The notes under the pieces were generated by a model that was given only the letters and a program-made list of their open reading frames with translations, did no database searches and was not told the DNA's origin. DNA of 64,000 nt from Cristatella mucedo (taxonomy: Eukaryota; Bryozoa; Phylactolaemata; Cristatellidae), in NCBI GenBank assembly GCA_009760855.2, contig WPIO01000138.1, positions 682,001 through 746,000 of the forward strand, given 5' to 3'. Each line of letters begins with the position of its first letter. The stretch's first letter is position 1. Positions 13,209 to 63,138 of the stretch are shown here, one piece after another. The position numbers were made by a program, and so were the translations under genes.

Positions 13209-13939
13209 ATAATAATGAAGTCTACGATTATCTTTTTTGCTGCGATTGCGCTCTGTAATCTGATGCTGACGGAGGTGAGTAAATTGAATTCATTTCAGCT
13301 TCATAGGTCGTGGTCAAAAGTCGATATCAACGGAGTACAGTTCAAACGTAATGGGATCGAGTTGTGAATTACTTTGTTGCAGCAAGCGATACATTTTTGT
13401 TATGCATTGTAAACGACACAATCCAAGTGCGATGTCTATTTCAGGGTGTTCAGGAAATTCGTGAGGTGGGCCCTGAACAGGAACTTGACAAAGAAGACTT
13501 TTTCAGAGGTAATGTATCTTGAGATAGATTCTGTAAAAATGCCAACGCCTTTCGTTTTGTTGCCGAAACCAGTGAGATTGTTATTCACTACATTCTCAAA
13601 CGAATCTTGTTTTAGAGTACAAAGAAGAGAAGAAATTTTTGGAAGAACTTAAAGCTGCTGGAAACAAAGCAATCAAACTAGGTCAATATTTCATTAAGTA
13701 TTTTCCAGCGATTGTGCAGGAGCTTGGAAAGTAGAAGAAGCTTGCATTGGCCACAAGAAATCTATTTTCAATATTCTCAGCTCATCTTCGTGAATTATTC
13801 TAAAATTTGAAGACTTCACGTATTTCTTCGTGGCATTTGAGAGAAATGTCTACGACGCCATGAATGCGACGATCGAAAAACACCTTAAGATGTCTTACAA
13901 AGGACATTTTGAAAAAAGGGCTTGAAAGGTGGAAATAAA
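13209..13939 (+). CDS. Small secreted amphipathic-peptide precursor (three coding exons)
   Basis: Coding exons 13215-13274 (60 nt), 13445-13508 (64 nt) and 13616-13734 (with TAG) join in phases 0 and 1 to give 80 residues. Exon 1 encodes a 20-residue signal peptide starting MKSTIIFF and ending at a gtgagt donor. Exon 2 is acidic (VGPEQELDKEDFF) and ends at gtaatg. Exon 3, after a tttag acceptor, starts Glu-Tyr, has a Lys-Lys at its residues 5-6 and then a helix-prone stretch with spaced Lys. The C-terminus is Gly-Lys before the stop, a usual amidation signal after trimming. An acceptor (ttttag) ends at 13208, 6 nt before ATG, so a non-coding first exon is expected upstream. AATAAA is at 13934-13939. 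Probably secreted; antimicrobial-, venom- or neuropeptide-like activity is inference. The only family copy on this strand. Confidence 0.65.
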
Positions 13940-14740
13940 TAAATGAAAGAATGCCTTCCAGACTGGGGCATAACAGTAGTATTTCAATACCACTAGTCAT
14001 ACATTTTGTAGTCCTGTGGAAGGTACAGAGTTTTGAATTTTTACTTATTGCGATACACGCATAATTTCGCCAAGTAGAGTAAAAAGCGTGAAATTAGTAA
14101 CGATCTATATGAAAGGATACTGGAAGGGCTGCTTATGCTATGTCTTATTTCTGAGCGGCTATTATCAATGCTATTAGCAAAGTTCAGTAAAGAGCTTTTG
14201 GAAATCCATTAAAGTTTTCATCAAAGTTCTTGAAATTAAGGAAAGAAAGTGTAGGCTTTTTGTTCAACCACATAAATTCCATATAATAAAAACTAACGGA
14301 ATATTTTCTGTATGAGTAGTGGTAAAAACCAAGATTTTTATAGGTGTTAAAAAACTAAACATCAGCATTTCACATCTAATTATTTTGGGTCCTGGCAAGA
14401 CATTCACTGTAGGTGGAACTTAAACGTCATTCAGGATTCAATTATTAAGAAGTTGAGTAGCATTCTAGATGATTGCATGTTCGCAAATTACCCACTTCTA
14501 ATACAATGTATACAAGTTCAGACGGAATCAAATATCATGGTATCCAAAATTGCACTGACTAAAAGTTGCTGAAAAACCACGTAATGCTAGCGACACCGAC
14601 AAATGCAAGCACAAAAAACCCGGGAGGATTATTTAGTTTATTATTTCATTGATTTAGCCGGCTTGTTGTCTTCCTATTTGATTACTATTTTAACAAAAAG
14701 AAATAAATATGACATTGTACGGCTGGTGTGGAAGTAATGA
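13940..14740. other. No recognised gene
   Basis: AT-rich sequence without a frame or repeat that I can assign. Confidence 0.3.
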
Positions 14741-14744
14741 CGGT

Positions 14745-14900
14745 GAGCCATGATGGCACACTAGGTAAGGTGGTTGCTTTCATGACCTCGGCCCCGAGGT
14801 CGTGGGTTAGATTCCTGCGGTGGGCGATCCTTTATCGCTACCGCACGCGGTGGAAGTAGCCGTAAAGGCTCTTCTGTCGCTATAAAAAGAGGCTATTTAA
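14745..14900 (+). mobile_element. tRNA-derived SINE-like element (type 2)
   Basis: Carries an A-box-like block (tggcacactaggt, 14754-14766) and a B-box-like block (ggttagattcc, 14805-14815), about 40 bp apart as in tRNA genes. The strong stem 'gacctcggccccgaggtc' lies in the anticodon-arm region. Followed by about 80 bp of unrelated body. It differs from the SINE at 34.4 kb. Confidence 0.5.
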
Positions 14901-15464
14901 TCAGCTATGATTTGTTTTATAATAGCACGTCTAATTTCGTTAAGTAATAACAAGCAAAATTTGAATTCGGCATATATAATGTCAGATTAATAAGACAATC
15001 GGTCAGAATGCCTATTCAACTATTTTATATGTAGTGAAGCAGGTTGAACGCTTGTTTGAAAAAAGAAACACATATTATACGAACAGTTTTAACTCGGTAC
15101 CAAGCAGAAAGCGACATAAATACAGAGAATGTTTTTACTGGTATTTGACTCATACTCGACACGTTTACACGCTTGCTGAAATTTTTAGGTCAAGCTAAGT
15201 GTGTGAAGCTCGTTAAGGTGCATGCTTGCAACTTTTACATTGAGTCATTTTCAGTATTTCTCTGTGGTTAGTAAATTCCGTAATCTGAACTACAGGTCAA
15301 AGATTTTAGAAAATGAATCTTTTTAAACTTCGATGACAGGTATAGAAAACCTATCAAACTAAAGTTAGAATTAGTAGTACGCTGTGGTACAAGCAGAGCT
15401 GAAATTGCATTTTAATTTCACTCTGATCCGTGAAGTATTAGAAGAGCAATGGAACTGACAAGGC

Positions 15465-16255
15465 TGATTTATGCAGTTGGTTGTCTAATGAACCTACGAC
15501 TACTGACCCTACGATAATTGGCTTGTACCAACCTTCAACTACATTGATCTACACACCATCTGGTCTGCAACTATCGGATCTACGTCAACTGACCTGTAAT
15601 AACTGACACATACGAAAATTGATCTATATTTCAATTGATAAGAATAATACACAATTTTTAATAAAATTTCTTTTTACAAACAATTAAGAATGAATTACTT
15701 ACGGTTTGCATTTTTTATATTTATGCAACAGAATTTTTAGTAAAAAATTTGTTCTCTTAGAAGTGTTAAACAATGTTCATCACGTTCTAGATAAAATCGA
15801 TCTTAATGTTACTGTCGCTTCTCAAATAACTATTGCGACAAGTATCGTAGTGCCGCTTGAATTAACGATTAGTTTTCAGTATTTAAAGTTTCTACATATC
15901 GCAGTAGCATTTACAAGCTCGGAAATTTCGTACTGTATTGCTGATTCCATGATTTATAAATATTATTATGTCAATCAATTATTGACTTCACAAATGATAA
16001 ATGTTATTAATTTATCCTAGCTAATATCAAATTAGTATAATAGTCTATAAACTAATTTAAATATTTATATTTATAACCTACTTTGACCTAATAAAACCGA
16101 CCTGCACCAGTATATTTGTATTGCATATTTCTGCTATTAGGGCCACTTGTCAAAGATCAGTTGTCATATAGGTCAATTGTCATGTAGGCCGGTTGGTGCA
16201 TGCCGATTGTCGTAGGGCGAGTTCAGTTGTCAAGTTCAACTGCCGGTACATAAAT
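15465..16255. mobile_element. Non-autonomous DNA transposon (MITE-like) with sub-repeated inverted ends
   Basis: The left arm (15465-15625) and right arm (16135-16255) are imperfect inverted repeats. Left 'cctacgataattggcttgtaccaacc' pairs with right 'ggttggtgcatgccgattgtcgtagg'. Each arm is built of short units around 'ctgacctacgacaattg'. The AT-rich core has a 104-codon frame (15706-16020) with no motif, so I do not call it a gene. Confidence 0.5.
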
Positions 16256-16300
16256 TTCAACTAAAAATCTACTGTAAATGCAGTTTTTATATACACACAC

Positions 16301-16302
<2 letters not shown>

Positions 16303-16345
<43 letters not shown>
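16303..16345. repeat. (AT)n microsatellite
   Basis: A long uninterrupted AT dinucleotide run just outside the inverted-repeat element. Confidence 0.9.
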
Positions 16346-16347
<2 letters not shown>

Positions 16348-16814
16348 CATATGTATATATTTTTATATCTAGGTTATATTGTCAATGTAGTTGAAAAGTC
16401 ACAAGAATGCTCAATCGCAAGCTTGAATATACTTACCGGCTCAAATTCTGGTAGCTATTTAAAAAATCCAAGCATTACCAAACGGCAGGATCCAAGCTCA
16501 TGCTGCAAACAATAGAAAAGCTTCTTCCAAAGGTGATTTGTCTACTGAGTTTACTTGGATCTCACGACATGAAACACCACACGCAAGATCTATATTACTA
16601 TTAGCAGAGTAAGGACGTCAGAAGAATGAAATCAATTAGTTAATATCACGATAATGTTTTCCATTTCAAAGCTGATCATGGGAATGGGAAATAATTTAGC
16701 ATTACAACATTTACGAATCGAAAGAGGGGTAAGTTTTTTTCTAATTACTATGTGACATATGTCAACTTTATTTCATTGGTTCAAAAGCTTTATACTTTAA
16801 TCACATATGCCTAA

Positions 16815-17920
16815 ATAAATAATAATAATAATAATACATTAGTGTAGCACCCTCAGAGAACTTAATGTATTTCCTATATTTTACATGTGCTGAAAAGGAA
16901 GAATACATTAGTGTAGCACCCTCAGAGAACCTAATGTATTTCCTATATTTTACATGTGCTGCAAAGGAAGCATGTTTGAATGGTTAGTGGTGGTATGCTC
17001 AATGAAAACAAGCGTAACATGGTTAGAGGTTACACGCGCAGGGTCAACAGGCAAATAAAAATAGTGGCTGCATGCACATTGTCAGCACTGATTAGCATAC
17101 AAGAAATGGATCACATTAAACCCTTAAATGCTACACAAGTATATGTTTTTAACAGGTTTTCAAATGTCGACAAGTAACGGGGTAGTCGTAACTCATGTCG
17201 GAAGTGAGTTCCTGACTTTTGGAAAATACAAAGTTGGGGCGCGGTCTTCAAAGGATAACTGCTCTATAAGCGAAGCCGTTAAATCAGCTAATGTTGATTG
17301 ATTTATCTGGCCTGGTGGAGCATAGTATAGTATAAAGAGGCTAAAGACGGAGAATGTCATGACCTGAAAGTCAGTAACAGAACCTTGAAGTCGATATGCT
17401 GCTTGATTTGGAACCAAAGCAGTTCGGTGAGAAGTGGGTTGATTTTTAAAATTTGACGATCCCGAAAAAAGGCCTAGCTTTAGAGTTTTGCGACAGCTGT
17501 AAGTGCCTGATTGCACACGGTGGTAGACCAGCAAGCATTGAAATTTACAAAAGTAGAGACGTGATGTTACAAATGCAAAACAAAATTGGGATGTAGTGTT
17601 CCAGGTCTAAGCACGTCAAAATCTTAGCCTTATGATGTTGATCAAAATAGGCGTAATTGACTGAGCAGCTGATGTGTTCACCTAATAAATGGTCACTTTG
17701 GTGTAAGACGCCTTTATTACGAGTAGAATCAACTGGGGATGTGATAGCAGATCCAATATTGAGCGATACTGTTTATAGTTTCTGAGCCACACTTGCCATT
17801 TTCGATATTAGCAAGTTGGTTACGTCGTCTTCAAATTCGAGATGGCTCAAAAAAGGGACAATACAGTATCATCTTCTTAGAAGTGGAAGCCTAGATTGCG
17901 CTTTGCGATCACATCGAAAA
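16815..17920 (-). mobile_element. LINE family A 3' fragment
   Basis: On the minus strand, 17920-17190 covers the end of the RT domain and the C-terminal region, as 'YADD'-adjacent sequence and then 'LAGLPPCAIRHLQLSQNS' in broken frames. The 3' UTR and an AAT-rich tail follow at 16815-16835. The tail is tandemly duplicated (16833-16970). Confidence 0.7.
16833..16970 (-). repeat. 69-bp tandem duplication of a LINE 3' tail
   Basis: Two near-identical copies start with 'aatacattagtgtagc' at 16833 and 16902. The unit is the conserved LINE A terminal segment. Confidence 0.85.
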
Positions 17921-17929
17921 GCGGAAGCG

Positions 17930-19385
17930 CATGTATGTACCTCTGTCTGTAACTCCACAAAGTCATAAAGACCGTGTGGGTGTTACGCAGGAGAATTTTG
18001 TATAGCACACTCACAGCCTAAGCGGCTTTCGATATCCATTCGGTAGCCAACAGACTTCGTCTCACGCAAAAAAGAAAAAGTGGGAAGCATAGCAGAGTCA
18101 GGAGAGCAGTTGAGGTAGTGAGTAGCATAGAAGTAGCAGCTCAGGACTGGGGAAAAAGATGTGCCATAGCCGGCAGTAGGAGAGTAGTTGTCGTTGCTCA
18201 AGAATTGTCAAAGCGAGTTCCACAGTCTAGGACCTGCAGAGCTAAAGCTTCTGTCGCCAACTGTCTTTAAGCGGAAGAATGGGACAGCTAATTTATTGTC
18301 CACAGAGGACCTCTGGGCACAAACAGGCTGAAACTGATGCAGCAGTTCAGCTAGGTACGAAGGAGCCAAGTCGTGGCAGGCCATGTGGGTCAGCGTAAGA
18401 ACTTTGCTCTGTATCCTTTGCTCAACCGGCAATCATCCTAGTTCTTTCAGCAAAGGAGACACGTGCACAAACCGCTGGGACTTGAAGACCAGCCTTGCAA
18501 CCATATTCATAGTTCGCTGTAGTGTCATGATAGCTTTCTTTGGCAGCCCAGCCATAAGGGAATTACAATAATCAAGCCGAGACAGACCTAAAGAGCTAGT
18601 TAAATTGTTTACAAGCCACTGTGGGAGACAGCTTCTAATCTTCGATAGGGATCGGATGTGGTGGCTAGCTGTAAAGGCAGTCTTCTGAATGAAACTTTTG
18701 AAATTGAGGCAGCTGTTGAACACGACACCTAAATTACGAGCACATGGTTAACGTCGCACAATAGCATCTCCTATTAGAACAGCAAAGCCTTTTAATCCAG
18801 CCACACGCTTAGGCTGTTCTATGAGCAGCAGTTTGGTTTTATCATTATTTAATTTCAGGAAGTTTTCCGACATCCAGGATCGAATGTCGGCAAGGCAAGC
18901 ATTCAGTTTATCAGTTTCAGCAGCAGATTCCGACGGTTTGAATGGCAAATACAACTGAGTATCATCAGCATAGAAGTGATATCCAATTCCATGGGCCGTA
19001 ATCAATTTACCCAGAGGTTGTGTATAAATGGAGAACGGCAAGGGACCGAGTACAGACCCTTGAGGGACTCCACAGGTTACCCTTCTCGTGTGTAAGACCT
19101 GACCCCCACACGACACGGATTGAACACGATCAGACAAGTATGATTTAAACCACGCCAGTGCTTCGTCTGCCAGACCGATCGTTGTTCTCACCGTTCAAGC
19201 AGAACTTCGTGCAGCGACATTCCCGTCGTCGTTGCCATGAACAATATCATTGTTAACAGGTAGGAGAGCAGTTTCAGTAGAGTGCTGCCTTTTGAACCCT
19301 GATCGAAATGTTTCTGACACTCCATTATTAAAAATATGTTCAACTAGCTGCTTAGCAACAATTTTTTCAAGAATCTTTGATTAGA
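17930..19385 (-). mobile_element. LINE family B fragment, reverse transcriptase to 3' end
   Basis: Minus-strand frames 19191-18748, 18723-18433, 18432-18208 and 18201-17983 are colinear. RT blocks include 'AWFKSYLSDRVQSVSCGGQ', 'GVPQGSVLGPLPFS', 'YHFYADDTQLYL' and 'FLKLNNDKTKLLL'. The C-terminal region has 'SLGLSRLDYCNSLMAGLP' and 'RLWNSL'. The N-terminal part of RT (19380-19195) survives only as 'KILEKIVAKQL' and nearby sequence, with about 40 codons missing before 'TIGLADEALAWF'. It is a CR1/L2-like non-LTR element, separate from family A. Confidence 0.8.
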
Positions 19386-30821: not shown

Positions 30822-31395
30822 TTTATTGTTGCATTCTAAAGTAGTCCTCCAAGTACTTCAAAAGTGTTAGTCCATACTTAAAAGCAAAATTACCTCCCGT
30901 TCTGAATACCTGTTGAAGCGTTTTCGCCATGTCCCTCTTTGCTTTATCGTATTCTGAAACGAAGCAATTAAGCAGCGACAATACTCATTTAAGTTGTTCG
31001 TATTGCTCAATAAGAGTCACAAGAGCTACAGCCTGCTCAGCTGGCCCCGCTCTTCCTTTAGTTACCATTGATAAATTCATCCGCTTCCGCTTTCAACTCA
31101 TGGCTGAAGTCAGCATTCGCTTCAGCAAACTCAGCAAAAAATTTATGATGCTATGTTCTGTGGCTACGATGCATTATAAACTATATTATCAGCCAATAAT
31201 TTAGTGTCAACTCATGGCATGGGCAATTTGTTATTGTTGCTGTTCATTATTCCAACCCGTGAATAGGTTACGGCGGAAAATGTTATAAGCCAAGTTCATT
31301 TGTTCAGGTGAAAGCTAAATTAAACCTACTACGGAAATCACAAGGCTTAACAGCATCACAGCGAAAGCAGTGATAGTGAGGGACTTGATTTTTAC
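30822..31395 (-). pseudogene. Secreted-peptide gene copy, intact except the start codon (ATC)
   Basis: Minus-strand exons 31389-31330 (60 nt), 31129-31066 (64 nt) and 30953-30823 (with TAA) join in phases 0 and 1, with donors gtaggt and gtaact and acceptors ag and tttcag. The signal exon reads Ile-Lys-Ser-Leu-Thr-Ile then a hydrophobic core; codon 1 (31387-31389) is ATC where the relatives have ATG. Exon 2 is acidic (ELKAEADEF). Exon 3 starts Glu-Tyr, has Lys-Arg at residues 6-7, then 'TLQQVF' and a Tyr/Phe/Lys-rich helix-like end. AATAAA overlaps the stop (30822-30827). An acceptor ends at 31396, 6 nt before codon 1. With every other feature intact this is a very recent loss, a sequence error or unusual non-AUG initiation. 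The next in-frame ATG would leave only about half of the signal peptide. Confidence 0.55.
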
Positions 31396-36273: not shown

Positions 36274-37209
36274 CTAAAAGTGACCGACAAAAACCTTGAA
36301 GTCAATCCGTTGTCTCACTGGTAGCCAGTGCAGGTCGGCGAGAAGTGGAGTAATGTGGCAACTGGGACCGTCACGACAGACAAGCCTAGCTGCAGAGTTT
36401 TGCACAAGCTGCAATCGCCTGATCGCACATGCTGGTAGGCCAGTAAGCAGTGAGTTGCAGAAGTCGAGACGGCATGTCACGAATGCATGAACCAACTTGG
36501 ACGTGGTATCCTTATATAAACAAGCCCTAATTTTAGCAATGTTATGAAGCTGAAAATAGGCGGATTTGACTGTGGAGCTGATATGGTCGTCTAACGAGAG
36601 ATCGCTTTGGAATATGACACCTAGATTTCGAGCTGATTCAACTGGAGATATGCTGGCAGAGCCAATTTTGAAAGTCAGCCTTTCCAATTTGTGAATCACA
36701 CTGGGTTTTCCCATAACTAGTATAGTTTTATCATCGTTTAGTTTTAGAAAATTTGCTGCCATCCATATGCGGATGTCATCAATGCATGCAGCTAGTGAGT
36801 TGAGAGAATTTGAGGTGCTCGAAGGCTGGGAGGGATCAAAGCAAAGGTACAACTGAGTGTCATCCGCATAGAAGTGAAAGCCTAGATTGTGCTTGGCAAT
36901 CACATCAGCAAGAGGCAGAGTATAAACCGTGAAAAGAACCAGACCTAGCACTGAGCCCTGAGGTACTCCATATTTTAGAGGTACTTCAGATGATCTTTGT
37001 CCATTCACGTCAATACTCTGGAGTCTCCCACTGAGATAGGACCGGAACCACTGCAGAGCAGTGCCAGTGATGCCCAGGCGAGATGAGAGGTGCTCTAGAA
37101 GTACATTGTGATCGATGGTATCAAAAGCTGCCGAAAGATCGAGCAAAACAAGAAGAGACACTCTACCCATGTCTGCATTCCTAAGTAGGTCGTTGTATAC
37201 CCAAAGCAA
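36274..37209 (-). CDS. LINE A reverse transcriptase, long intact segment
   Basis: A 311-codon open frame carries the RT palm. It contains 'LLVLLDLSAAFDTIDHNVLL' (first catalytic Asp), 'YGVPQGSVLG' and 'GFHFYADDTQLYLCF' (YADD catalytic Asps), then 'FLKLNDDKT', 'NLGVIFQSDLSLDDHI' and 'LLTGLPACAIRRLQLVQNSA'. A single TAA just upstream (in the 'HSTE-ALLWVYNDLL' region near 37212) separates it from the preceding RT blocks at 37809-37321. It would copy LINE RNA at the nicked target. Best preserved coding segment among the repeats, so probably the youngest LINE A here. Confidence 0.8.
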   Translation of the reverse strand: MLWVYNDLLRNADMGRVSLLVLLDLSAAFDTIDHNVLLEHLSSRLGITGTALQWFRSYLSGRLQSIDVNGQRSSEVPLKYGVPQGSVLGLVLFTVYTLPLADVIAKHNLGFHFYADDTQLYLCFDPSQPSSTSNSLNSLAACIDDIRIWMAANFLKLNDDKTILVMGKPSVIHKLERLTFKIGSASISPVESARNLGVIFQSDLSLDDHISSTVKSAYFQLHNIAKIRACLYKDTTSKLVHAFVTCRLDFCNSLLTGLPACAIRRLQLVQNSAARLVCRDGPSCHITPLLADLHWLPVRQRIDFKVFVGHF

Positions 37210-37896
37210 TGCTTACTCTGTGGAGTGATTAGCTCTGAAGTCAGACTGGAACTTACTAGCAAGGTGTGAGGTTTCGATATATGAATTAAGCTGGTCTGCC
37301 ACGACCCGTTCCATTGTCTTTCATAGGAATGGTAGAAGGGAGACTGGGCGGTAGTTGCTCAAGTTCTCTAGGTCTAGTGTAGCTTTCTTGAGAAGTGGCC
37401 TGACTACAGCTTTTTTGAAAGGTGCTGGGACATGACCTGAGGCTAATGACATATTAATTACGTTAGTTATGGATGGCAGCAGCAGATCAATGCAACGTAG
37501 GAGCAGGACAGTGAGAATAGGGTCCAGAGGACTTGTTGTTTTCTTTGATTGAGATACGAACTTTAGGACTAGATCACTAGTGACCTGCTTAAATGCAGAC
37601 ATTGAGGCGCAGCCAGGAACCGAGAAACAGCATTCTAGTGGGAAGTTTGTCATCGCAGGGATGGATTCCCTGATCTTGTCTATCTTCTGCACACAGAATC
37701 GAGAGAAGCGATCGGCTAGATCATCACAAGGATCATCAGAAAAGGAGCTAACCTGGGAACGGTTAAGGAGATGGTTCATTGTCGACATCACCTTTTTTGT
37801 ATTGTGCATCTGTGATTCAACAATGTTTCTATAGAAGCTAGACTTGGCCTTTGCTAGGATCGATTGGTACGACCTACAGTAGTCTTCATATGCCTG

Positions 37897-40494: not shown

Positions 40495-41440
40495 GTCAGG
40501 AGGCGAGACTAGTTGTGGTAAAGGGTTGCACCATACCCCACGTTCGTTTTCACAAAGAAATCTAAGTTTTCGCCGACCTTAGTAGCAACTCCCCAGCATT
40601 GGCCTATTGTGTCTGTTTGGGTCGAAGTCGATTTTTAAGATGAAATATTGGTTTAAATGCAGTGCCCGGCTCACAGGACTGGCTGGACAGAACGAGGCCG
40701 CACACACCATACTCGTAACGGCTCTAGTTGCAGCTGGCGTACGACAAATGCTAATGATGTCTAACCCAGTACAGGTTCTAGTGACTGATGGGTACGGCAC
40801 CAATGCACCTAGGTATGCCGGCATTAGCAGAAAAACTGTGGCGATGAAGAGTGGTCATACTTTACGTAACGCATCCGTAACCATAAAATCGACAAGTTAC
40901 TTAACAGCGCCGAATAACTACAGGTGTTCAAAATCAGCTTTAGCTTACACCAACGGCTATTTGGCCTAGAGCTCGTTATACATTCTTAAATTATCACTTA
41001 ACTGGTTCCTAGCAGCTGCAATTAAGGAACCAAAAATAACGATCTTCAGCCAAAATGGGGCTGCTTTAGCCGGTGCCGCTGATTAACTATGGCTTAGTCC
41101 AAGATAGTTAGCTTGGTTCGCACTGCTGCGATCTCAGCGTTCCGCATCAGTAGCTTTGAAGAACGAGTGAAGGTTACATTGATCCCTAAACGATGACGGA
41201 CACGTCGCGTTTTTCATGCACTGCTAACGTCATGCCGGATAAAAGAAGTTTGATAAGAGCAAAACGCTGCTCTGCCATGTTAAAATGCTTATAACATCAC
41301 ATCAGCAGTACTCGAGCACTATACAGGGTATACGAAGACAGATTTAAGAATCTTCCCTTACTTTATGAAGGCTATTGTTAAATTGTTTAGCCGAATTTTT
41401 TATTTGAGGCGAACGAAAAGTGAGGAAATTATTTTCAAAT
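40495..41440. other. No recognised gene
   Basis: A 120-codon plus-strand frame (40607-40969) has no motif, and an 81-codon minus frame overlaps it. Not supported as a gene. Confidence 0.25.
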
Positions 41441-41524
41441 GACGTTTATTGCTTAAAATTGTGTGCACAAGTGAAGCCGGAATGTGATTATAATTAGGAA
41501 GTGCGTTACTTTGATTGCAGCGGA

Positions 41525-42073
41525 CTAAAGTAGTCCAGCAATTACTTTTAAAAGTGTTGGTCCGTACTTAATAGCCAGAGCAGTTCCCGTTAATAGTAGG
41601 TTTTTGAAAGTTGTCACCAACTTCGTCGTATTCTGAAACGAAACAATGACGCTGATATGATACTCGTATATGTTGCACTCATGACTCAATATGCATAACA
41701 GCTACAGCCAGTTTAGAAGGTCCAGCTGTCCTGTTAGTTACCTCTGATAGCTTACGCTCCACTTCGACTTCCAAGTTCAGTCATCAGTTCATTATTCAAG
41801 TCACAATTTTTTTGAAACTGCAATATAGCTACAATGCCATAGCATTTGGCCACGTTCCATTTAAAACTTTAAAATCAGAGCTGAAAGTCCATGTAAAATT
41901 ATGACACAGACAATTGTGTATTGTTAGTGTTCAGTTTGATGAAAAAATTAGGTATCATGCATTCAATTTTCATCAGCCGACGTCATTTTAAGTATAGGCT
42001 AAACACAACTTCCCGCCACATCGCCAGATTAAACAGGAGCATAGTTTAAAACAGCGATAGTAAGAGCCTTCAT
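41525..42073 (-). pseudogene. Secreted-peptide gene copy, frameshifted pseudogene
   Basis: The minus-strand structure is still visible. Exon 1 (42073-42014) starts Met-Lys-Ala-Leu-Thr-Ile but meets TAA at codon 15, and its donor is damaged (ggaagt). Exon 2 (41817-41742, 76 nt) opens after ttgcag but hits a stop. Exon 3 (41632-41525) starts Glu-Tyr after gtttcag and then needs a frame change to reach 'AIKYGPTLLKV', which is close to 'AFKYGLTLLKY' of the 31-kb copy. Intron 2 is 109 nt. The acceptor before the ATG (ttttag, 7 nt away) and a poly(A)-like AATAAA (41445-41450) remain. Three separate lesions, so dead. Its nearest relative here is the 31-kb copy. Confidence 0.7.
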
Positions 42074-42906
42074 CTTTCACCTAAAAAAGAAAAAACCTAT
42101 GATCATACTTTAAAAAAAAACCGAAGAACTGAACTAGGCAATATAGTTCTTAGTCAAGCTTAAAATAACTTTTTTAATCCCGTAGCTTTTCTGTCATAAA
42201 AAATTTACATCTTAAAATACCTCAGTCAAACATATATTGCAAGAGATGCCATTTAGGTTGCCACGTGAGGATTCTAACATGAATTGCACACTCGCTTAAA
42301 CAGTTTGCAAAACTTGGCAATGGATTTAGCTAGCAGGAGGTACAAGATTTGCATAAAAATGGTTCAGTTTCAAAAATTGTTCATGGGAGTCTGATATTTT
42401 GTACAAAAATATTTTAACAAAATGAAAATTTCATTCTTAATAGATTTCATTTAAACGAGCAGTCATATTTTACAGCTTTCAAAAGCATGGATGCAGCAAG
42501 AAATCAACCTTCCAATGAGGTTTACAGATGGTTTTCACCTCAATTGTCGCACCGACTTGCATGCAGTGATCAACCGAGTTAGCAAGCACCCAATCAACAT
42601 TACTATGACCGTTACTATTACAAGGCGATTAAAAATGCCGGGGATGCTGTTCCGTCAAAATAAGCATCGCTAGCAGTTTGTAACGGGATAGCTGGGTAGT
42701 TGTTTCGAGCTTTGAAAGCCGCTTAGCTCACCCACACGCTTACATCAGCATTTGTATAGCAATAACACATTTTTGCCCCATGACCAGCTCTCGTGAGAGG
42801 TCGGCATGCTAGAAAAATAGATTCTCGAAGGCTTGAAAAAGTTGCCAATTGCAAATTATTACCGTTTGGTAGGATAAAATGCTTAGGCTGCTGGAAGACA
42901 CCTAGT

Positions 42907-42942
42907 CCAGTGAAGTTTAACTACCTTAGAAAATTCTGGTTG
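42907..42942 (-). promoter_or_regulatory. Decayed promoter block of the 42-kb peptide copy
   Basis: 'ccagtgaagtttaactacc' and the following 'ttagaaaattctgg' match the blocks at 63803-63842 and 49023-49063, including the TATA position (here TTTAACTA). It lies about 830 bp upstream of the pseudogene's ATG. Confidence 0.45.
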
Positions 42943-44935
42943 TATACTTGAACATGCCATCACAATAGCTAGTTGATAAATGAAATTTTACGAATTAAGT
43001 CAATGTTTTTTAACGTTTTTCAAAATTACTAATAATGTTTGATTAAAAGGTATATCTGCTTCGGAGGATTTGCTTAATTTTTTTCAATACTCGTTTGCTG
43101 TCGTTGGCCTCTAAAAACCCAAGAATGCATTATTGTTAAGAAAGGATTATAAAAACGAACAATTGTTACAACAATAAAGAATTAATTTGTATTATATGAT
43201 GACATAAAAAAGGAAATTACCAAAATATTTGAAAATCTAACAGCGAAGGTTTAGCCACAGCAAAGTACAGAAGAAAAGTGGTTCGAGTAAAACGATCCAA
43301 TTTTTACAATTAGGCGTTTCAAGATTACCTGTGGCTTTGCCATATGCACTGGTTGAAGTCGCGCGAAACTCTATACATGGAGAGTCGTTATTCTTTTTAC
43401 AATTTATTGCCTATCGGCAGAAGCTGACGAAGACTTTTTGCAAATTTTACTCTTTGGATAGCCACTACCTAACACCAAACCAACGTTTTTCTAGCAATCA
43501 GGGTGTCAGCAAACTCTATGGGCCTAACGAAGCTCTGAGGTACATTGTCCACGAACATGTTTCAATTTAGGGATTAAAAATTCGTGTGGCCGTCAACTAT
43601 CCATGCTGTACGTATATAAAAAATGTATCACAAGTATTCTTTTTATCTTATCTTTAGTGGCTTAGTCATCACTGGTCAAGGGCTGAAATTGGTTCACATC
43701 AATCTAAATGAGCCCCACCAGAGTAAAGACATAAATTCATGTAATTCAGTTCAGGAGCCATCTAAGTTATGGTAACACATTACGTCCAATAATTTTGTTA
43801 TCTGTGTCACTCATTGTGATTAAAAAAGTCGTGCGCCGACGCTATTCCCTATCTCCACGTTACTGCATTATTACTAACCCGTTTCAAAATCGTTCCAACA
43901 TAATTTTATTTCAGTCTCAACGGAAGAATCGTGCGTTCGAATTCGTTTTAAACTATTAGGAATCCTTGAATTTAAGAAAACCTCATTGTAATAATTCAGC
44001 CGAGTATACAATATACTTACAAGACGTCAATTTCCGCATTTAATGTTGTCTGTGCAGTTAGTTCCACTTCTATAATATGATTTGCAAGGCTAAATAGTTT
44101 GTAACTGACAAAGACCCGTCAGGTCTACCTATTTTCGTCCCTCAATATAAATGAAAACAAGCTAAGGGGTTTCCATTGCCCGCATTCTTCGTTTAATTTT
44201 CAAGCGCATTCATTCACACGGAAGTGCTCTTTTCTAGATCTTGTTTCAGGTACTTACGACACCGAGTCAATTGTGAAAGTAATTTATGGTCCACCGGCAC
44301 TGGTTCCTCGTGATTCTCAGATATATCTTTGACCCAAGGCATTTTTTCGTGCAACAAATGAAATATGTACTTGTTACACGTGAGCCATATTTTAATGTGT
44401 AAACGTTGTATGCCATCTTAAGTGTTGCATTGCAAGCACTGACTTACTTTTTGACTGGCTCACATGCTTAACCTTTTCGCTGCAACGGCCAAGCACTCAA
44501 TAAAATTTTGTCACACGTAGGGAACGCTGGCATTCCCTATCATCAATAAATTCCACTAGGGCGGACTCGCACCATTCTCAGTTAATATACAGTGGGTGCC
44601 CCATCCTCTTATTATAACTTCTGGTAATCGCCTATCCTCTAGAAACTTTACAATGATGCCGTTCCGTCAAAAATATTATTAATGCCGCTGCCTCACCATC
44701 CTCTTCCACACAGTTATCATTTTTAAAGTCGTTGATCACGATCCTTGCGGGCTTGGTCCAAGGTAGGAAGTTATGATGAGGCATACTGTGCACTCGTTGA
44801 CAGCCGGCCAACGGTGTTTCCAGCAATACTTCTGTTTGATCTGCTGCTGCTGTAACTACATAAATAAACAATTAATATGCCATTAGCCTCAGTTCATGAT
44901 CTCGAAACTCTCTAAAAGGCTTAAGTTAGGTCACT
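42943..44935. other. No recognised gene
   Basis: AT-rich, short frames only on both strands. Confidence 0.3.
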
Positions 44936-47648: not shown

Positions 47649-48200
47649 TCAATTGACAATCTTTTTAAATTTTCGAGCGTGCTTAAGAAAAAGCTTCTTT
47701 CTAGTGTGGTGGAGAGCCTTTCTTAGCTTCTTAAAGAATTTTCTGATAGTTTCATTATATTCTGAAACGGAGCAATCAAAAGGAGTTTTCAATAATTTAA
47801 TCCGTGCTCACACTGCAATTAATCGAAAGATCACCTGGATGAGCTGATCCTGGTCAAGTTAGTTGCCTTTGAAGGTATAACTACTTCAGCTTCCAGCTTA
47901 GGATTCCAATTCAAATCTTCCTCCAGACTCTGCAATACCGCAATAGTGTAATTGTGTTTGCTAATTTAGTATACAAAGCATCGGACATATAGCAGAAAAT
48001 AGCAAAAATAGATTTAAATCATAACCTTGCAATGATTGTATGGCTGATACCCAGGAGACTGGCGAATGTAAGCTCTCCAGTTTGTTATGCAGTCATAGGC
48101 CAATTATATTCAAATTGTTAAGCATGACCATAACTTACCACAGCCGTGACGAGATTAAAAAGCAGCACAGCAAAATAATTAGTGGGAGACTTCATTTTCA
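47649..48200 (-). pseudogene. Secreted-peptide gene copy with highly cationic exon 3
   Basis: Minus strand: exon 1 48195-48139 (57 nt; Met-Lys-Ser, hydrophobic core, donor gtaagt), exon 2 47929-47867 (63 nt; begins SLEED, acidic), exon 3 47761-47649 (TGA). Exon 3 read in the family frame starts Glu-Tyr and then has 14 Lys/Arg and 3 His in 36 residues with almost no acid, a strongly cationic amphipathic helix pattern ('KFFKKLRKAL'). But exon 2 is one nt shorter than the family's 64 and its donor is GC rather than GT, so as read the junction is out of frame. Intron 2 is 105 nt. An acceptor (tttcag) lies 5 nt before ATG. Either a young pseudogene whose peptide exon has not decayed, or a gene with an error or unusual splicing in exon 2. 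Confidence 0.55.
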
Positions 48201-49785
48201 CTGAAATGAAAAGAAAAAATCTGGTTGAGCTCTTTAGCTTAAAAGTCGACAAAATAAAAGATTAAATTAAAACGTTGTTGTCTGAGGCGTCACATATTTA
48301 TATGTGCATTGAATTTCACGACTGGAATAGTAAATTGGCACCGAAGTTTCTCAGGGAAGCCAGAAGTTAGCAATCAACGCCATTTCGGTACACACTTTGG
48401 GACTATACTATGTAATACACGCTCTGATAATCAGGTAAAGAAATTTCCTACCGAATTTTTATTGCAGTAGTTGCTTTATACCGAGGTGAGGTAGCGTAAT
48501 AATTGAATCAGTAGTACACGTTGTAAAAAGAGTTAAAGTGAAGGAAAGTTCTGCTTCAGGTAAATCTCATTAACGGAGAATAAAAATCACTAAAGGAAAA
48601 TATATTTGATGGATATTTTTAAAAGCATGGATGCGGAAGTAAATTAAATTATGACAATAATACTGATAGCGTTCATTTAAAAGGTCAAACTTATTAGCAT
48701 ATCGTGATCAGCTGATGCTGCGGGCTCCAAACCAACAACAACCATGGCCGTTATAATTACAAGGCATATACTATTACCAAGGACATTAACCGCACGTACC
48801 AGGCAAAGACAGCAGGGTCTTTGTCGTCCATAGCTAGCGTATTGACAGATTGAAAATCGGTCGAACTCACCCACCCTCTTACTATCCTACGGCTTTAATT
48901 AAATAGTACAATCCCGCCCATTGTCCCCTGCAAAGCAATTATATCTAAAGTTTACATTCTCGAAAGCTATGCAACTGCTCACCATTTGGTCCAATTTAAT
49001 GCAGGCGCTAGTAAAAGTAGCATATTCAGTAGAAGTATATATAGCTTTTAAAAATGCTGGCAGTAACCTTGAACGCACATCCAAAATAGTTGACGGATTA
49101 GTCAGACTCAGTTGGTGGGCAGACAGAGGTAGAGGCGACAGCACAAGCAGAAAGAGCAAGGGCAGCTTGCACTGCGAACTGAGGGTGCGTGAGAGTCTCA
49201 CCTTGTCGGCTGATGATAGATACATACTAGCAGGAAAGCCGTAAATAAGCAGCTAGCAGTGAAAGGCATGTATCTAGTCACCCAGTAGCACGCTGCTGAT
49301 GAGTTGCAACATATTCTACGAGCTGCAGCACTATGCAAGTATCGGCCAAAGCAGTTGATGATTTTGCAATGTGGCCGCTGCTTCCACAAAGCAGCAGAAG
49401 GCATCAGCAATGTGCCTGTATTTTGAAAATACTTAGTCTGCTGCCAATGCTGCCTCTGCCACGAAAGAGAGGATAATGCCTCAAACGATCGATTCACACT
49501 TTCCAGTGATACTAGTGACAAAGGCCAGACATGGTCTAGTCCTATACCATTCAGTTTAGGCTGTGAACGATCACTTCAAACTGCTGAAAACTGTTTACGG
49601 GCATCTTGACGTCACAAGCAGCCATCTGCAACTGAACCGAGTCGTTCACGAAACTCCTTTCAGGACTACAGATTACATTAATCAAGCGGCCATACTTTTG
49701 ATCTTGACGAGGATGCCACATAAATGCCACTATCAAATCATTTTTAAGTGTTCAGTGAGTGTTGAAAAACGTCTTCTGGATCGAT
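48201..49785 (-). promoter_or_regulatory. Duplicated upstream region of the 48-kb peptide copy
   Basis: The block 48620-49230 is similar in order to 63320-63990: 'agcatggatgc', 'atcagctgatg', 'attcagtagaagt', 'gttgac.gattagtcaga.tcagt' and 'gaaagagcaag'. A TATA box (TATATATA, 49036-49043) lies in the minus-strand orientation for transcription towards the gene. No coding sequence was recognised here. Confidence 0.45.
49023..49063 (-). promoter_or_regulatory. Predicted core promoter of the 48-kb peptide copy
   Basis: 'attcagtagaagtatatata', then 'gcttttaaaaatgctgg', matching 63803-63842. On the minus strand a TATATA box is followed about 60 nt later by a donor-like 'aaatggtgagc', which fits a non-coding first exon spliced to the acceptor near 48201. 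Confidence 0.45.
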
Positions 49786-53000: not shown

Positions 53001-53325
53001 TCGTATTACTTCTATAATGAATCTACCATATTTTACTCTAGGAGTGTAATTTCAGAGAGTACTATTTTCTCACCATTCGCAAAAGTTAAAGTAAGATTTC
53101 AGACTCTTCACTAACTTTGTGAAAGCAATTTGTCAATCGTCAAACTTTTTCTGCATATATCACTAGGAAGCAAAGTTGATGTTTTTAACAGTATTTCCTT
53201 TTTTAAAGGATTCACGAAAGAGAAGCCACGCAGTAAAATTCATCAACAATAGAATTATTTCTTATTTAGCAGTCAAAATAAGTCATGTGACAGATTTTGT
53301 AAGTTGCATTCCATAAATGGTAGTG
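50071..53325. other. No recognised gene
   Basis: About 3.2 kb with only short frames. No signal-peptide exon of the MKS family was found on either strand by eye. Confidence 0.3.
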
Positions 53326-53329
53326 ATTG

Positions 53330-53724
53330 CACCTCCCTTTAGGCTACCTGGCCTAGCGTTTGCTGCAGTTCCTCTCTGATTCGCCGGATTCTGAAACAAA
53401 GCTATCATGCGCTGAGAATAATCCTGTAAACATTATTGGTAGCTCAATGTATTCCACATTGACAGCCGATTGAGCTGGCCCTACTCAGAAAGTGATTACC
53501 AAAACATATAAATGAATAAAATTCATAAAATATATATATAGCGCCCCAAGAGAACTTAATCTTTATTCAGGCACTTCACATATGCCTCGGGGCTCGAGCC
53601 TGCAACCTCAGATAGACCTTGGTCGGGGCGAGCACCTTAACCGCTGGATCAAACCAGCACTAATGAAAGGTTCCTCTACTTTAGCTTTAAGCTCAGGGCA
53701 CAAGTAAGCTTTTTCCTCTATACT
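53330..53724 (-). pseudogene. Secreted-peptide gene relic, split by a SINE
   Basis: On the minus strand, exon 3 begins after gtttcag at 53390 and carries an 'LQQTLGQVA'-like patch in a shifted frame before stops. Intron 2 (from about 53500) matches the 31-kb copy's intron 2 ('gtaa..., gggccagct.a..ggctgt'). Exon 2 begins after a tagcag acceptor at 53724 with an acidic SIEEK start close to SLEED of the 48-kb copy, and is interrupted by a SINE (53541-53690). No signal exon was found where the intron length would place it (about 53900-54000). A dead copy, important as the fifth minus-strand member. Confidence 0.6.
53541..53690 (-). mobile_element. tRNA-derived SINE (type 1) inserted in a peptide-gene exon
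   Basis: On the minus strand: A box 'tggtttgatccagcgg', B box 'caggctcgagccccg', then 'ggcatatgtgaagtgcctga' and 'taaagattaagttctcttgg' with 'ggcgc', the LINE A 3' terminus, then an AT-rich end. A short TTCATT.A-like duplication borders it. Confidence 0.7.
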
Positions 53725-55095
53725 CTGCTATACAACTACAAGAAGATAGATATACAGTCGCCACTCTGCATGCAGAAGTCTAGATTGCTTTCAAAAATTT
53801 GCTATCAAATTATGGCTCGGGAAGCTGTTTAATTAACGCCTTAATGGAAAAGAATAATTTAAAAAATGGAGCAAAAGTGGATCAATTTATCGGGTATAAA
53901 GGGCGATGCATCTGTACACTGCATTTCAAATATCATTTTAAGAGGCAACTATTTGAAGGAATTGGATTGAAAACAATCGAGGCTTATTGACAAACTCAAA
54001 TAACATTAACTGCAGTCGTGCAGAAAATGCGTCCGGGAGGCCACCTAACCAGCAGAGCTTATATGAGCAGAATTTAAGCAGATACAATCAGTGTGCCTTA
54101 CCTAGACGAATTGGCCCGCATTGGTACGCTTGGTCATGTGCGAAGCTCTTCATCTAAAGAGATAAGCTGGCATAGTCAAAAGCAGTGAACATTTTTCAAG
54201 ATTTACGACCAGGATTCTTAGAACACCCACTCAAGCCATATTCCTAAAGCCGTGTGCAGGCCTTGCTTAAACTGACTAAAAAAACAGTCTGGGGTTGAAA
54301 ACTGTGCTGTCTCATTGAGCCTACCATACTACAATAAGCAACGACAATGGCTTGATCTCTTATGAATTCGGAGATAATATTGTAAATGAATGCATTTACT
54401 TACGTATTACTGATGTCTCTAAAATAGTTTTAATCCCTTACTAGCCTTAAGGTCATCAGTTTGGCATACTGCCAATTTGGCCGAAAATAGTTCCTGTTAT
54501 TCTTGCACCGTTTAATTGCCCTATACTAATGAATATTGACTGGTATATCAGTCATGCCTACACTTAACTAAGAAAATTCAAATCTCATCCAAATACTTTG
54601 CTCATATTAAACGATTTATATAACTAAACTTGCATTTTTTCCAGAACTGTGAGAAAACAGGGTGTCTTTTGGCATGCATAGGTTCATTTAAGGCGGCTAA
54701 GAGTTTGACAAGATGGTGAATTATAAAATGAAGATTGTGTTACTTAGATGAGAATAATTATGATTGATTAAAAATCCACCAAGGCACTAGATTTAGGATT
54801 ATTCAAAACGACAATTTGACAAGTGGGGTACAGTAATTATGGTTTGCGGAATACAGTTATCCATTCGTTTGTAGTGAGCCAAAAGTTCCTCTTTTCCTGT
54901 TGTTTCCGGTTTGTCCTGTTATCGCGTTGAATGAGGGAGTCGTTAGTGTGCTCCGAGTCAATTGATGAGACTGACCACCGAGCCAAATACATGCAAACGT
55001 GAATACAAGCCAGTTCACCACAGTCGCCCAGTTTTTGGACAGCCTCTTCAACTCTGGCTACTAAATGTCCGTTTGCTGAAATCGAGGGGTTACAT
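53725..55095. other. No recognised gene
   Basis: Short frames only. Located between the peptide relic and LINE B. Confidence 0.3.
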
Positions 55096-59345: not shown

Positions 59346-62300
59346 ACGGAGATACATTAGGTTGCCCAGTTACAGCTAGGCAGCCCCACAGTCTTCATTG
59401 AGTTGGTATGGCTGTGCATAATAAACCTGCAGATGGCAAAGTTTATTTATTATTAAGCAATGCCGTAGGCCCGAAGACGACGGCTTGGATGCAGCATTAT
59501 CAGTTATAGCCCTCCCACAGTACATGCAGAGGGTGGTGGTACGAGAGAATACGATTCCTAGAAAAAAACCTTAAATCAAACTAAGAGGAAAGAAAACTAA
59601 TAAGCGATTACCTTAAGCATATGCGTCATCTAGATAGCGAAAAAAGTCTAAACGGACTCAGCCAAGATGGCACGGCCGGCAAAAAAGGCAAGCTCCTGCA
59701 GGACTCGAGCTTGCTGCAGCGTTCATGTTTATTTCCTGTATAGTGATATCATAGCTAACTTTGATCTTAGCAAAACCAGAATATCACAGACTCGGCTCCC
59801 GATAAGTAAAAAATGTGAGAGCCACTTCCTTGGATGTAGCATGAAATATTCAATCTCTAATGATTAAAAAGTACGAATACCGTCAAGCCAAAATTGAGAG
59901 TAACTGCTTGTTATTGTAGGTCAGATTTTATAACCTACTGAATGTCTGGGACGTCCTTTCGTTACTTTAATTGTCTTCATCTGCCTTATAATCATTTCAT
60001 TCAAAAATATCCTGGAAGATACCTGTAACTAAGGAAGCTTGGCAAACAGTGTCCAATACCTATCAGTTATTAGAGTGACGAATGACATATTTGCAGGCAT
60101 CCTCGTACTAATAATCCAATGGTGCTGAGTTAATAGCAGTGACTGCATAAGCAGACATAACTGCATTTTCCTGAATGTCAAGGAGAACTGGCACACATAT
60201 CTGAATCTTTCTAATAAGTGTTCGGCCACTAAGATATTTCAAGCATATATTTACCTCAATGGCAGTCGTCATTGTCATTGGGATAACTTATGGTCAAATC
60301 CTGGATTCCCAGCGACCTTTCCGGTGTTGTCACAAGAACACTTTATGGGTTAACATGCTGTACAGTAATTTGAGAAGTAGATGTGTTTCTATGCAGCATT
60401 TACTATTATCTACAAACTACAACCTACTCCGCTCTAACGATAACATTTTACCGCTATTTATTGATATGACAGAGTAGCGACTTCAATTAATCTTCTGGGA
60501 GTATAAGAAACTCAAGCCGCATTACTTTAACCATAGTGGCGCCTAGCGTTGCAGTTAATGCAACCTAGCATGCAGATTGCTAATCTAAGCGCTTATCCAT
60601 CGTCTTAGGAAAACGTACAGTAATAACACTTGCAGGGGTACAGAAAATATAATCTTCGGAAGGGCTTATATAAAGTAATCTTTTCTGATGCTTAATGCAT
60701 GGATGGAGTCACAACCTTAGTGCGACAAGAATAAAAGAGCAGTATTCAAATACTTTATTAATGTATTATGGTGGTGAAATGCAGCACATACACTTAAGTT
60801 CCTTTGATCAAATTGAATTTATTTCTTAGCATGTGCGATAATTTAAAGGTTCAGTCGTACGCCTCTTCACCTATGGTTTGGCTAGTGTTTGCACAAGTTT
60901 AATTTTCTGAGAATACTCAGGGAGTTTGTACATTTGTTGAATGGAATCTAAACGAGGCTTAGTAGGAAGGAAAACAAAGGTAAGCAGTGAAGGGAAGCAA
61001 AACTTACATGTCACATAATGTCTGGCCTACCATTAAGGTTCGTGCTGAAAACTAGTTCCATGAAGATGTTATGATGTGATTACACTTTTACGCAGTTTTG
61101 AATGACTCTAGCAATTCCGAAAGGTTCAGCACGGTCCGGCTTCGACAAATTAATTCAACTCCGATTTCACAAACGTTGGTGACTCTTTTGAATACCTAAG
61201 GTGGTTTGCCTATGAAAGAATATCAGGATTCGGGTGTAACACAGGGTGGTCTTGCATGTCGACGGGACTCTTCAAGCTCGTGTTTTGTGAAGCCTCTATG
61301 TTGCTGTAGGTCACAAAAGCAGCAAAGTAAATTTGGCAGGAAATATTTGAAATAAAATGAAAAAGATCTATTACAAAACCGTCATGGGGAAAAAGTAATT
61401 CAGAGATAAATATCGTTGCAAGGCTTCAATATGAGCTAAGAAAATCTTAAAATGTGGCCGAACTTGGAGCAAAACAGCTTAAATTAGACCAAGTCCCTAA
61501 AGCAAAACCTTGACGTACTTTGTGTGGTATTATCAAATGAAATCCTAGCGAACGATCGGAAATAAATCGACTCATAGCTTAATTTTGAGGTCGGGTATAT
61601 TTGAAATCGTCCCACTAATTGAAGAGCGTTGAGAGCTACTCGTGACTTGTAGCCTCTGCTAATTCTCCATATATGCCGTCTCCTAAGAGGCCGTACGTGC
61701 TGATGAAAACAATTCACAACCAGAGAGTCTGGCCTCGCTTCATGCTCAAACTAAGTGAGTGAAGGCGATTTACGTGAAGATACTTTGATACTTGGGTTAC
61801 TTTTGTGGTTTTTTGTCAATCGATTTACTTAGGAATCGAATTAAGAACACTTCCTGGCAGTTGGGTCAGGAGAAGTCTATTAGCTATCGCAAAAGTACCC
61901 ACATTTGCTATGGCTTTGACTGGGCCATGGAAATCACCCGTGCCTAACATCCAATTAGTTAGTGTAGCCAAGTGGAGATTCTTCCTAAGATACGTTCTGA
62001 AATACCAGAAATGAGAAGGATCGAACGTTCCTTTGTCAAATTTTGATTTCCCTTGTAATTTAAATTCATCAGACACTGATATTTCTCATTTGAGCAGTGA
62101 GGCTCCTTAAATGGATTAGGAAACCAGAATCATCTTTACTAATATATTGCAAAGGTTTGCTTTACCTATATCCCCTGATTATGGGAACAATCGAACGCTG
62201 AAATTTCAAGCAGAATAAATTATCTGATTTTGAGTCAACAGAAAATTGAGTGCTCAGCTTTCAGTAGAGGTACCGGCACATAATGCCGTAATTGGCATGC

Positions 62301-62490
62301 TATATCTTTGTCGTAATTGCGTTTAATTTATTCCATAGCGATTAATACATTCACTGATTTCCTTCAATTATTGAGCCGAATGTGTACTTAAAATATTCCT
62401 AGAATTCTGTTGCTGTTCTTATAACTAAGCAAAAGATTCATCTAGTGAGCAATGACGTGCTGCACGGTCGAGTCCAAACAAGAAACTAGG
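59346..62490. other. No recognised gene
   Basis: About 3.1 kb of AT-rich sequence. Frames on both strands (such as 61825-62076 minus) have no motif. Confidence 0.3.
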
Positions 62491-62509
62491 ATCGTCATTT
62501 TGAATGAAA

Positions 62510-63138
62510 TTTATTGTCACGAATTCTGCAAGCACAGCCTATTATTCATTGTGTAGAGCTGTTTTAGTATCTGTGTCTGTTACTATATTACCAGTTACCG
62601 TCCCAAAAGGAGATGTGGCGACTGTGTTAAAACTCGACCAAAACTGTTGGCTACCTGTTGTAAATTGGAAGAAAGACTCCTCTTTGCTCGGGCGTATTCT
62701 AAAATGATAAGATGGAAAATGGTTATATTTTTAATAATTACCTTGTGATGCAGAGTTTTAACTCAAATCGAGTCGGAATCGCTTCGCTGTCCCTAAACGT
62801 ACCTTTGAAATTGTCTTCTAATTCTGCTAGTAACTCAATGGTTACATCATGATTATCAACCGAATTCTGTAAATGAGCGAAGCTACAATCGTCTTAGTTT
62901 CACGGTTGCTATCAGTCAACATTGAAACAGAAATATAACAGCTGTCATGGAATCTTACAACTTCCATACCACTTTGGAATAATATTTTTCTTTATTAATT
63001 GATCACATGTATGTTCAATTCATTCTGAAATCTTATATCAACTGCAAACTAAAACACGCCTATCTCTACTCACCTCAGACAGTACTGCATGAAAGAGAAG
63101 CCCTACGATGAGAGCGACTGTGAAGGACTTCATTTTTC
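62510..63138 (-). CDS. Small secreted-peptide precursor (three coding exons), intact
   Basis: Minus-strand exons 63133-63074 (60 nt), 62866-62803 (64 nt) and 62698-62595 (with TAA) join in phases 0 and 1 to give 75 residues. The signal exon starts MKSFTVALIV and ends at gtgagt. Exon 2 is acidic (ELLAELEDNF), donor gtacgt. Exon 3, after ttttag, starts Glu-Tyr and has Lys-Arg at its residues 6-7. The presumed mature part carries 'NLQQVANSF' and ends in Leu-Leu-Leu-Gly-Arg, a usual amidation signal. Intron 1 is 207 nt and intron 2 is 104 nt. An acceptor 5 nt before ATG predicts a non-coding first exon, and a promoter-like block lies at 63803-63842. AATAAA is at 62515-62510. Likely secreted and processed; activity unknown. 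Short and weakly charged, unlike the 48-kb copy. Confidence 0.65.

Follow-up and report, generated by a model that had tools for sequence, protein, structure and literature searches.

The window analysed here, a stretch of 64,000 nucleotides (nt) from Cristatella mucedo (C42:682001-746000 of a 572,011,866-base assembly in 688 contigs), carries six copies of a small split gene, named g13, g31, g41, g48, g53 and g63 after their kilobase positions in the window. The coding plan of this gene consists of an exon of 60 nt for the signal, one of 64 nt for an acidic part and a final one that opens with Glu-Tyr over a phase-1 junction, a phase that results from the 64-nt exon 2 coming after a phase-0 junction. 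The features of the six loci, in window positions, are the following.

13215..13274, + strand: g13 exon 1 (signal peptide), intact copy, 60 nt, GTGAGT donor
13445..13508, + strand: g13 exon 2 (acidic), 64 nt, net charge -4
13616..13734, + strand: g13 exon 3 (Glu-Tyr, basic site, last segment ending Gly-Lys)
13934..13939, + strand: g13 AATAAA signal
30823..30953, - strand: g31 exon 3, open
31066..31129, - strand: g31 exon 2, 64 nt
31330..31389, - strand: g31 exon 1, start codon lost
41419..42139, - strand: g41, damaged copy, whole gene span
42466..42972, - strand: g41 upstream block, common to g48 and g63, E 5.5e-27
47649..47761, - strand: g48 exon 3, strongly cationic, frame unjoined to exon 2
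47867..47929, - strand: g48 exon 2, 63 nt, GC donor
48139..48195, - strand: g48 exon 1, 57 nt
48707..49222, - strand: g48 upstream block, TATA-like box at 49043, 67% over 532 columns against 63472-64000
53182..53485, - strand: g53 remnant, end of intron 2 and broken exon 3, E 1.7e-15
53664..53831, - strand: g53 remnant, end of intron 1 and exon 2, E 4.2e-8
62595..62698, - strand: g63 exon 3 (Glu-Tyr, Lys-Arg, last segment ending Gly-Arg), fastest-diverging gene segment
62803..62866, - strand: g63 exon 2 (acidic), 64 nt, net charge -5
63074..63133, - strand: g63 exon 1 (signal peptide), intact copy
63472..64000, - strand: g63 upstream block, TATA-like box at 63821, truncated where the window ends

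Structure and homology of the window loci

Only g13 and g63 are intact. The former has exons of 60, 64 and 119 nt separated by introns of 170 and 107 nt, and its predicted precursor consists of the signal MKSTIIFFAAIALCNLMLTE, the acidic segment GVQEIREVGPEQELDKEDFFR, EYKEEKK and a 32-residue end closing with Gly-Lys. The latter has exons of 60, 64 and 104 nt and introns of 207 and 104 nt, giving the signal MKSFTVALIVGLLFHAVLSE, the acidic segment NSVDNHDVTIELLAELEDNFK, EYARAKR and a 27-residue end closing with Gly-Arg. Among the damaged copies, g48 has exons of 57, 63 and 113 nt with introns of 209 and 105 nt, g31 keeps a 64-nt exon 2 and an intron 2 of 112 nt, and intron 2 of g41 measures 109 nt from its positions. 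These lengths agree with an initial annotation of the same DNA, which had proposed a signal exon of 57-60 nt, a 64-nt acidic exon in the three best copies, an intron 2 of 104-112 nt in five copies and an intron 1 of 170-209 nt, and which rightly noted that no copy is visible as a single open frame.

The four remaining copies are each damaged differently. The start codon of g31 is gone and its exon-2 acceptor is weakened; g41 has a damaged first donor and frameshifts; the frames of g48 do not join because of the GC donor and the 63-nt exon 2; and in g53, exon 1 is undetectable, exon 3 is broken and intron 2 holds an insertion resembling a short interspersed nuclear element (SINE). This insertion spans about 53535-53658, and by eye its tail resembles the 3' end common to copies of a long interspersed nuclear element (LINE; family D15). 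An AATAAA lies downstream of g13, g31, g41 and g63, not of g48 or g53. Within the window, an upstream block of several hundred bases is found 5' of g41, g48 and g63 only, with TATA-like boxes in g48 and g63; outside it, at L006:5390-5794 (+), an inverted block stands without an adjoining gene copy in that orientation. Several copies show an acceptor-like AG a few bases 5' of the ATG, which makes a non-coding first exon likely besides the coding ones. The three-exon gene of the initial annotation is therefore retained for the coding exons, to which a further non-coding exon should probably be added.

On DNA comparison, all six window loci are homologous. A DNA profile built from g31, g41, g48 and g63 recovered the left-out g53 in two parts (E 1.7e-15 and 4.2e-8) and the left-out g13 on the opposite strand (E 3.5e-7); g13 scored 22.6 bits, compared with 9.2 bits for the best of the dinucleotide-shuffled windows, and none of 100 shuffles reached it. 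Pairwise matches join g31 with g41 (E 2.8e-28), g31 with g53 (9e-12) and g48 with g53 (4e-5) and, upstream of the genes, g48 with g63 (4.9e-63) and g41 with g48 (2.8e-10). Peptide profiles of exon 1 and exon 3 built without g13 did not return g13 among their seven best rows; g13 is therefore placed in the family by the DNA profile and by the plan it has in common with the other copies, and by these comparisons it is the most remote window member. A protein search of the genome found the g13 precursor exons at the window locus only, and g13, g31, g48 and g63 are too diverged for exon-versus-intron identity by global alignment. A mechanical search of the window for the whole plan, with criteria fixed after the family had been seen, returned no copy other than g13 and g63, and 200 shuffled windows gave no match. 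Thus, the six loci on one plan described initially stand as a matter of ancestry, by profile homology, and not as six working genes, four being damaged.

Extent of the family and its open precursors

The family comprises at least 34 loci on three contigs: 22 on C42, 11 on C122 and 1 on C592. This figure is a lower bound, which may include two assembly duplicates and in which L008a and L011, each made of two fused half-copies, count once each. A profile made from 11 copies, run over the window with 20 kb on its left and 200 kb on its right, located 19 loci from C42:695152 to about 882.8k, and none in C42 882.8-946.0k or 662-682k. Genome searches added three C42 loci (610.4k, 618.4k and 624.1k), eleven C122 loci from 559.2k to 1457.7k, confirmed in fetched pieces, and one C592 locus at 423.2k. 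No family copies were found in the C122 stretches 788-798k, 740-750k and 864-872k, and at the sensitivity of the searches used none was established outside C42, C122 and C592 in the 688 contigs. The count leaves aside weak matches on other contigs and, on C592, three short DNA matches as well as two protein matches (E 1.6 and 1.07). At C592:2398788-2419970, three short matches to intron 2 of L044, about 10.5 kb apart and 77% identical over about 80 bases, possibly represent a further array. Two C122 loci (860.1k and 862.7k) are nearly identical to C42 loci. Blocks 99.6-100% identical are shared by L009:8537-9813, L010:6540-7816 and C122 at about 858.7-864.6k, including a 1277-base block at 100%; a recent segmental duplication or an assembly duplicate is possible. 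By inspection of the sequence, at least 20 of the 34 loci are damaged, fragmentary or doubtful.

Open coding exons are kept in nine distinct precursors (g13, g63, L009b, L036, L041, L042, L043, L044 and L049). The L009b precursor is found identical in L010d and in L028 (C122); L029 was checked for two exons only. All nine have an exon 1 of 60 nt, with 57 nt also allowed in L036, and an exon 2 of 64 nt. The exon lengths and phases are thus conserved in further copies of the same genome, in partial accord with the test proposed initially, which looked for such copies in related genomes. The acidic exon precedes the last segment in 9/9, Lys-Lys or Lys-Arg stands before that segment in 8/9, and no last segment contains cysteine. 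At the donor of intron 2, GC replaces GT in g48 (window 47866) and in L049; the two lie on different contigs, and the L049 frame is otherwise intact. Six of the nine precursors end in Gly, Gly-Lys or Gly-Arg, compared with 112 of 2255 open-frame ends in the window, a test picked after the data had been seen. Predicted ends include GLWSKVKQLAIKYGPTALKIAKVL-amide (L043), GFFKNIAKLVFKGAKYALKYGPQVVEAIV-amide (L049) and KLFKKILKKLLHRKKHAYKHALKFGKILS (L036). The amidated end suggested initially thus suits these six, amidation itself being a prediction.

Net charge ranges from -3 to -7 in exon 2 and from 0 to +11 in the last segment (eight precursors, excluding L049). The predicted products are mostly of 24-32 residues and amphipathic: the helical hydrophobic moment of the last segment exceeds that of shuffles at p<=0.05 in 6/8 precursors, with a combined p of 3e-6 in which sister copies are not independent. 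A single-sequence AlphaFold2 model of g13 exon 3 gave one helix over residues 2-37 with a mean predicted local distance difference test score (pLDDT) of 91.7, which carries small weight because short peptides readily fold so. The initial view of a multicopy family of secreted peptides, with signal, acidic spacer, basic cleavage site, amphipathic tail and frequent Gly end, was borne out by these features.

Searches for relatives were largely negative. With g13 and g63 as queries, about 5.8 billion proteins yielded no match at E<=10; the collection contains animal proteins, as the LINE reverse transcriptase of the window matched named fish and limpet entries in it. Pfam, antimicrobial families included, gave nothing above its cut-off for g13, g63, five other precursors (L042 and L049 were not among them) and the third-exon pieces of g31 and g48, and NCBIfam gave no family above cut-off for g13 and g63. 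No relative appeared among viral contigs (IMG/VR), and six peptide strings of the family were absent from 5.39 million open-access papers. Matches in PDB were weak; the top one of L043, 8vd6 (E 0.00042), was set aside as the sum of five repeats of about 3 bits each. The family therefore qualifies as undescribed only with respect to the protein, Pfam, NCBIfam, PDB and open-access collections searched.

Divergence of the last segment and surrounding sequence

Comparison of sister copies indicates that hypervariability of the last segment is real in some groups. L043 and L044 are identical in exon 1 (60/60) and exon 2 (64/64) and nearly so in intron 1 (192/195) and intron 2 (108/109), and 444 of 448 aligned positions (99%) agree from exon 1 to the basic site. 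Their last segments share 50 of 78 positions (64%) with an additional 21-nt gap (p 4e-14), and the 3' flank is 91% identical. In this pair, synonymous divergence (dS 0.48) is raised as much as non-synonymous divergence (dN 0.53). Pairs of L042 with its sisters show a similar excess in the last segment (p 1.6e-4 and 3e-5). Among g63, L006a and L017, of which the last two are themselves damaged copies, identity is 0.55-0.61 in the last segment (84 aligned positions, gap-free) compared with 0.77-0.82 in intron 2 (p 0.002-0.003); exon 2 is at 0.75-0.84, and the dN/dS values of 0.73/0.27, 0.83/0.34 and 0.88/0.33 give ratios above 2. In the g63/L017 pair, change in the last segment also outpaces that of the 3' flank (p 0.037) and that of pooled non-coding DNA (p 0.001). 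L010d and L010e appear to follow the same pattern, with identities of 0.54 in the last segment, gap included, and 0.81 in intron 2.

Selection and recombination are both possible causes of this hypervariability. One tentative proposal, which we hold to be doubtful, is that the genes are cassette mosaics: gene conversion or focal mutation would keep the promoter, the signal and acidic exons and the introns alike, and the segment behind the basic site would be exchanged or hypermutated, yielding a self-renewing arsenal. The near-identity of L043 and L044 up to the basic site, followed by a divergent end, is the pattern cited for this proposal.

The surrounding window has a guanine plus cytosine content of 42% by base counts and a CpG observed/expected ratio of 0.75. 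It contains a Gypsy-like long terminal repeat (LTR) element, with direct repeats 81% alike at 6489-6683 and 10809-11003 and coding sequence between them, and an RNase H domain of LTR-retrotransposon type at 8845-9462 (E 2e-20). Several LINE copies are present (36274-37212 on the - strand, and repeats near 17-21k, 28.5-29.4k, 45k and 57-58k), with a reverse transcriptase domain (E 1e-17) whose best protein relatives are 48-55% identical among the matches listed. Units of 69 bases form a tandem pair at 16833-16970 (97% matches). The Rfam scan at gathering thresholds returned nothing, and the tRNA search found none. Elsewhere in the assembly, mitochondrial COX1 lies at C688:15615-16955 of a 21,008-base contig, with TGA read as Trp and AGR as Ser, a code that speaks against vertebrates and tunicates; partial COX1 matches on C166, C83, C549 and C299 look like nuclear copies.

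Resemblances and probable role

Judged by plan, and as far as the cited passages describe them, myticalins come closest, together with the peptide clusters of Hydra and the venom genes of ants; each differs in a defining feature or is compared by description only. Myticalins, the linear antimicrobial peptides of Mytilus, are lineage-restricted and clustered, with many pseudogenes, a dibasic site, a Gly before the basic site and a phase-1 intron within the coding sequence, as is found here after the 64-nt exon 2 (PMC12294457). Their exon 1 is non-coding, a trait suggested here by the acceptor-like site before the ATG and the upstream TATA-like boxes. However, the anionic part of myticalins is described as a C-terminal extension after the mature peptide, whereas the acidic exon precedes the last segment in all nine precursors here, and myticalins have two coding exons rather than three (PMC12294457); the likeness is one of description. 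In Hydra, arminins and periculins, reported as confined to that genus, are likewise secreted, of uneven charge, lineage-restricted and encoded by clustered, fast-duplicating paralogues of shared exon structure (PMC10945409). Most Hydra antimicrobial peptides carry a complex cysteine pattern according to the same source, in contrast to the cysteine-free last segments here, and this comparison too is by description only. Helminth defence molecules were also considered; the passages of PMC3093369 bearing on them give no gene structure.

Cathelicidins offer another comparison: a Lys-Tyr-Gly-Pro-Thr stretch and a terminal Gly are common to the sheep cathelicidin peptide 1fry and the L043 last segment. 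At E 0.4, this likeness is not significant as homology and would reflect convergence or chance rather than kinship, although it provides a lead. The L043 precursor appears to lack a cathelin domain, since no Pfam domain was found in it, and its acidic exon has only 64 nt. Disulphide-forming cysteines, which define cysteine-stabilised antimicrobial peptides, occur in the last segment of 0/9 precursors. Sea-urchin centrocins and strongylocins contain cysteine, unlike the last segments described here. They resemble the family in having a short anionic propeptide that neutralises a cationic peptide (PMC10608444).

Taken together, the pre-pro plan, the basic site, the Gly ends, the amphipathic segment, the large decaying cluster and the fast last segment are best fitted by lineage-restricted secreted peptides of host-defence (antimicrobial) type, with a cysteine-free, amphipathic, often Gly-ended mature part and birth-and-death evolution. 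We consider this reading probable, and it stands ahead of the neuropeptide, venom and dead-family explanations weighed below. Transcription would start from a TATA-type promoter through a non-coding first exon; the signal peptide would be removed and the acidic spacer would keep the peptide inert until a proprotein convertase cleaves after Lys-Lys or Lys-Arg. The basic residues would then be trimmed, C-terminal amidation would follow, and at microbial membranes the peptide may adopt the fold of an amphipathic helix. The cluster would grow and decay by tandem duplication, with the last segment changing and the pre-pro part staying.

Several observations weigh against a host-defence role. L049 has Thr-Arg in place of the basic pair besides its GC donor, and three of the nine precursors lack a Gly end. 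In g13, g63, L010d and L042 the last segment carries little net charge (0 or +1), a poor fit to a classical cationic antimicrobial peptide that weakens this explanation for those copies, and the helical moment does not exceed that of shuffles at the 0.05 level in L036 (p = 0.16) and L043 (p = 0.06). Other last segments compared with PDB gave no antimicrobial relative. A 22-nt gap in the last segment of L010d relative to its sister L010e means that the short end of L010d may be damage. As dN is close to dS in L043/L044, point-by-point positive selection alone does not explain that pair; the excess of non-synonymous change among g63, L006a and L017 is of borderline significance (one-sided p 0.046, 0.073 and 0.029), and no excess divergence of the last segment over non-coding DNA was found in g31/g41, g31/L015, g48/L012 and g48/L008b.

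A basic site together with a Gly end is the signature of neuropeptides, and the presence of these traits in eight and six of the nine precursors would also suit neuropeptide or peptide-hormone precursors, processed alike and giving products that act on a receptor. However, neuropeptides usually conserve the mature part best, and here that part has diverged the most in the g63 and L042-L044 groups and is indistinct from non-coding DNA in four other pairs; at least 34 loci with many broken copies would be unusual for a hormone, and the size and amphipathic character of the products do not favour it either. This explanation is therefore regarded as unlikely. Slightly less likely still are venom or skin-secretion peptides, whose architecture is alike: ant venom peptide genes are also in tandem, with TATA boxes, amidation signals and pseudogenes, one of which has lost its start codon, yet they are described as holding most of the prepro-sequence in exon 1, unlike the 60/64-nt plan (PMC10800049), and nothing in the window points to a venomous animal.

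The same low standing is given to a largely dead family, in which the loci are relics and the few open frames chance survivors. The proportion of damaged loci fits such decay, as do the g31/g41 exons, no more conserved than intron 2, and the altered last segments of L010d and of L042, the latter changing frame against its sisters. Against this, the frame and the exon lengths of 60 and 64 nt are preserved in nine distinct precursors, and L043 shows no difference from L044 in either pre-pro exon, whereas under neutral decay at 0.25 substitutions per site only about 1% of copies would keep an open frame and four splice sites. A mobile or satellite-like repeat, suggested by the many copies with introns and flanks and by the solitary upstream block in L006, is very improbable given the restriction of the copies found, at the search sensitivity used, to three of 688 contigs, the confinement of the window block to three gene copies, and the coding frames and splice sites kept in nine precursors.

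If expressed, the host-defence family favoured here would offer a rich supply of unlisted amphipathic peptides that lack cysteine and, in compact natural form, an example of a mature peptide that changes behind a fixed pre-pro part, and the L043/L044 pair makes selection versus recombination directly testable. Because each copy is split into short exons, searches based on single open frames miss the family, which suggests that similar families may be under-counted in invertebrate genomes.

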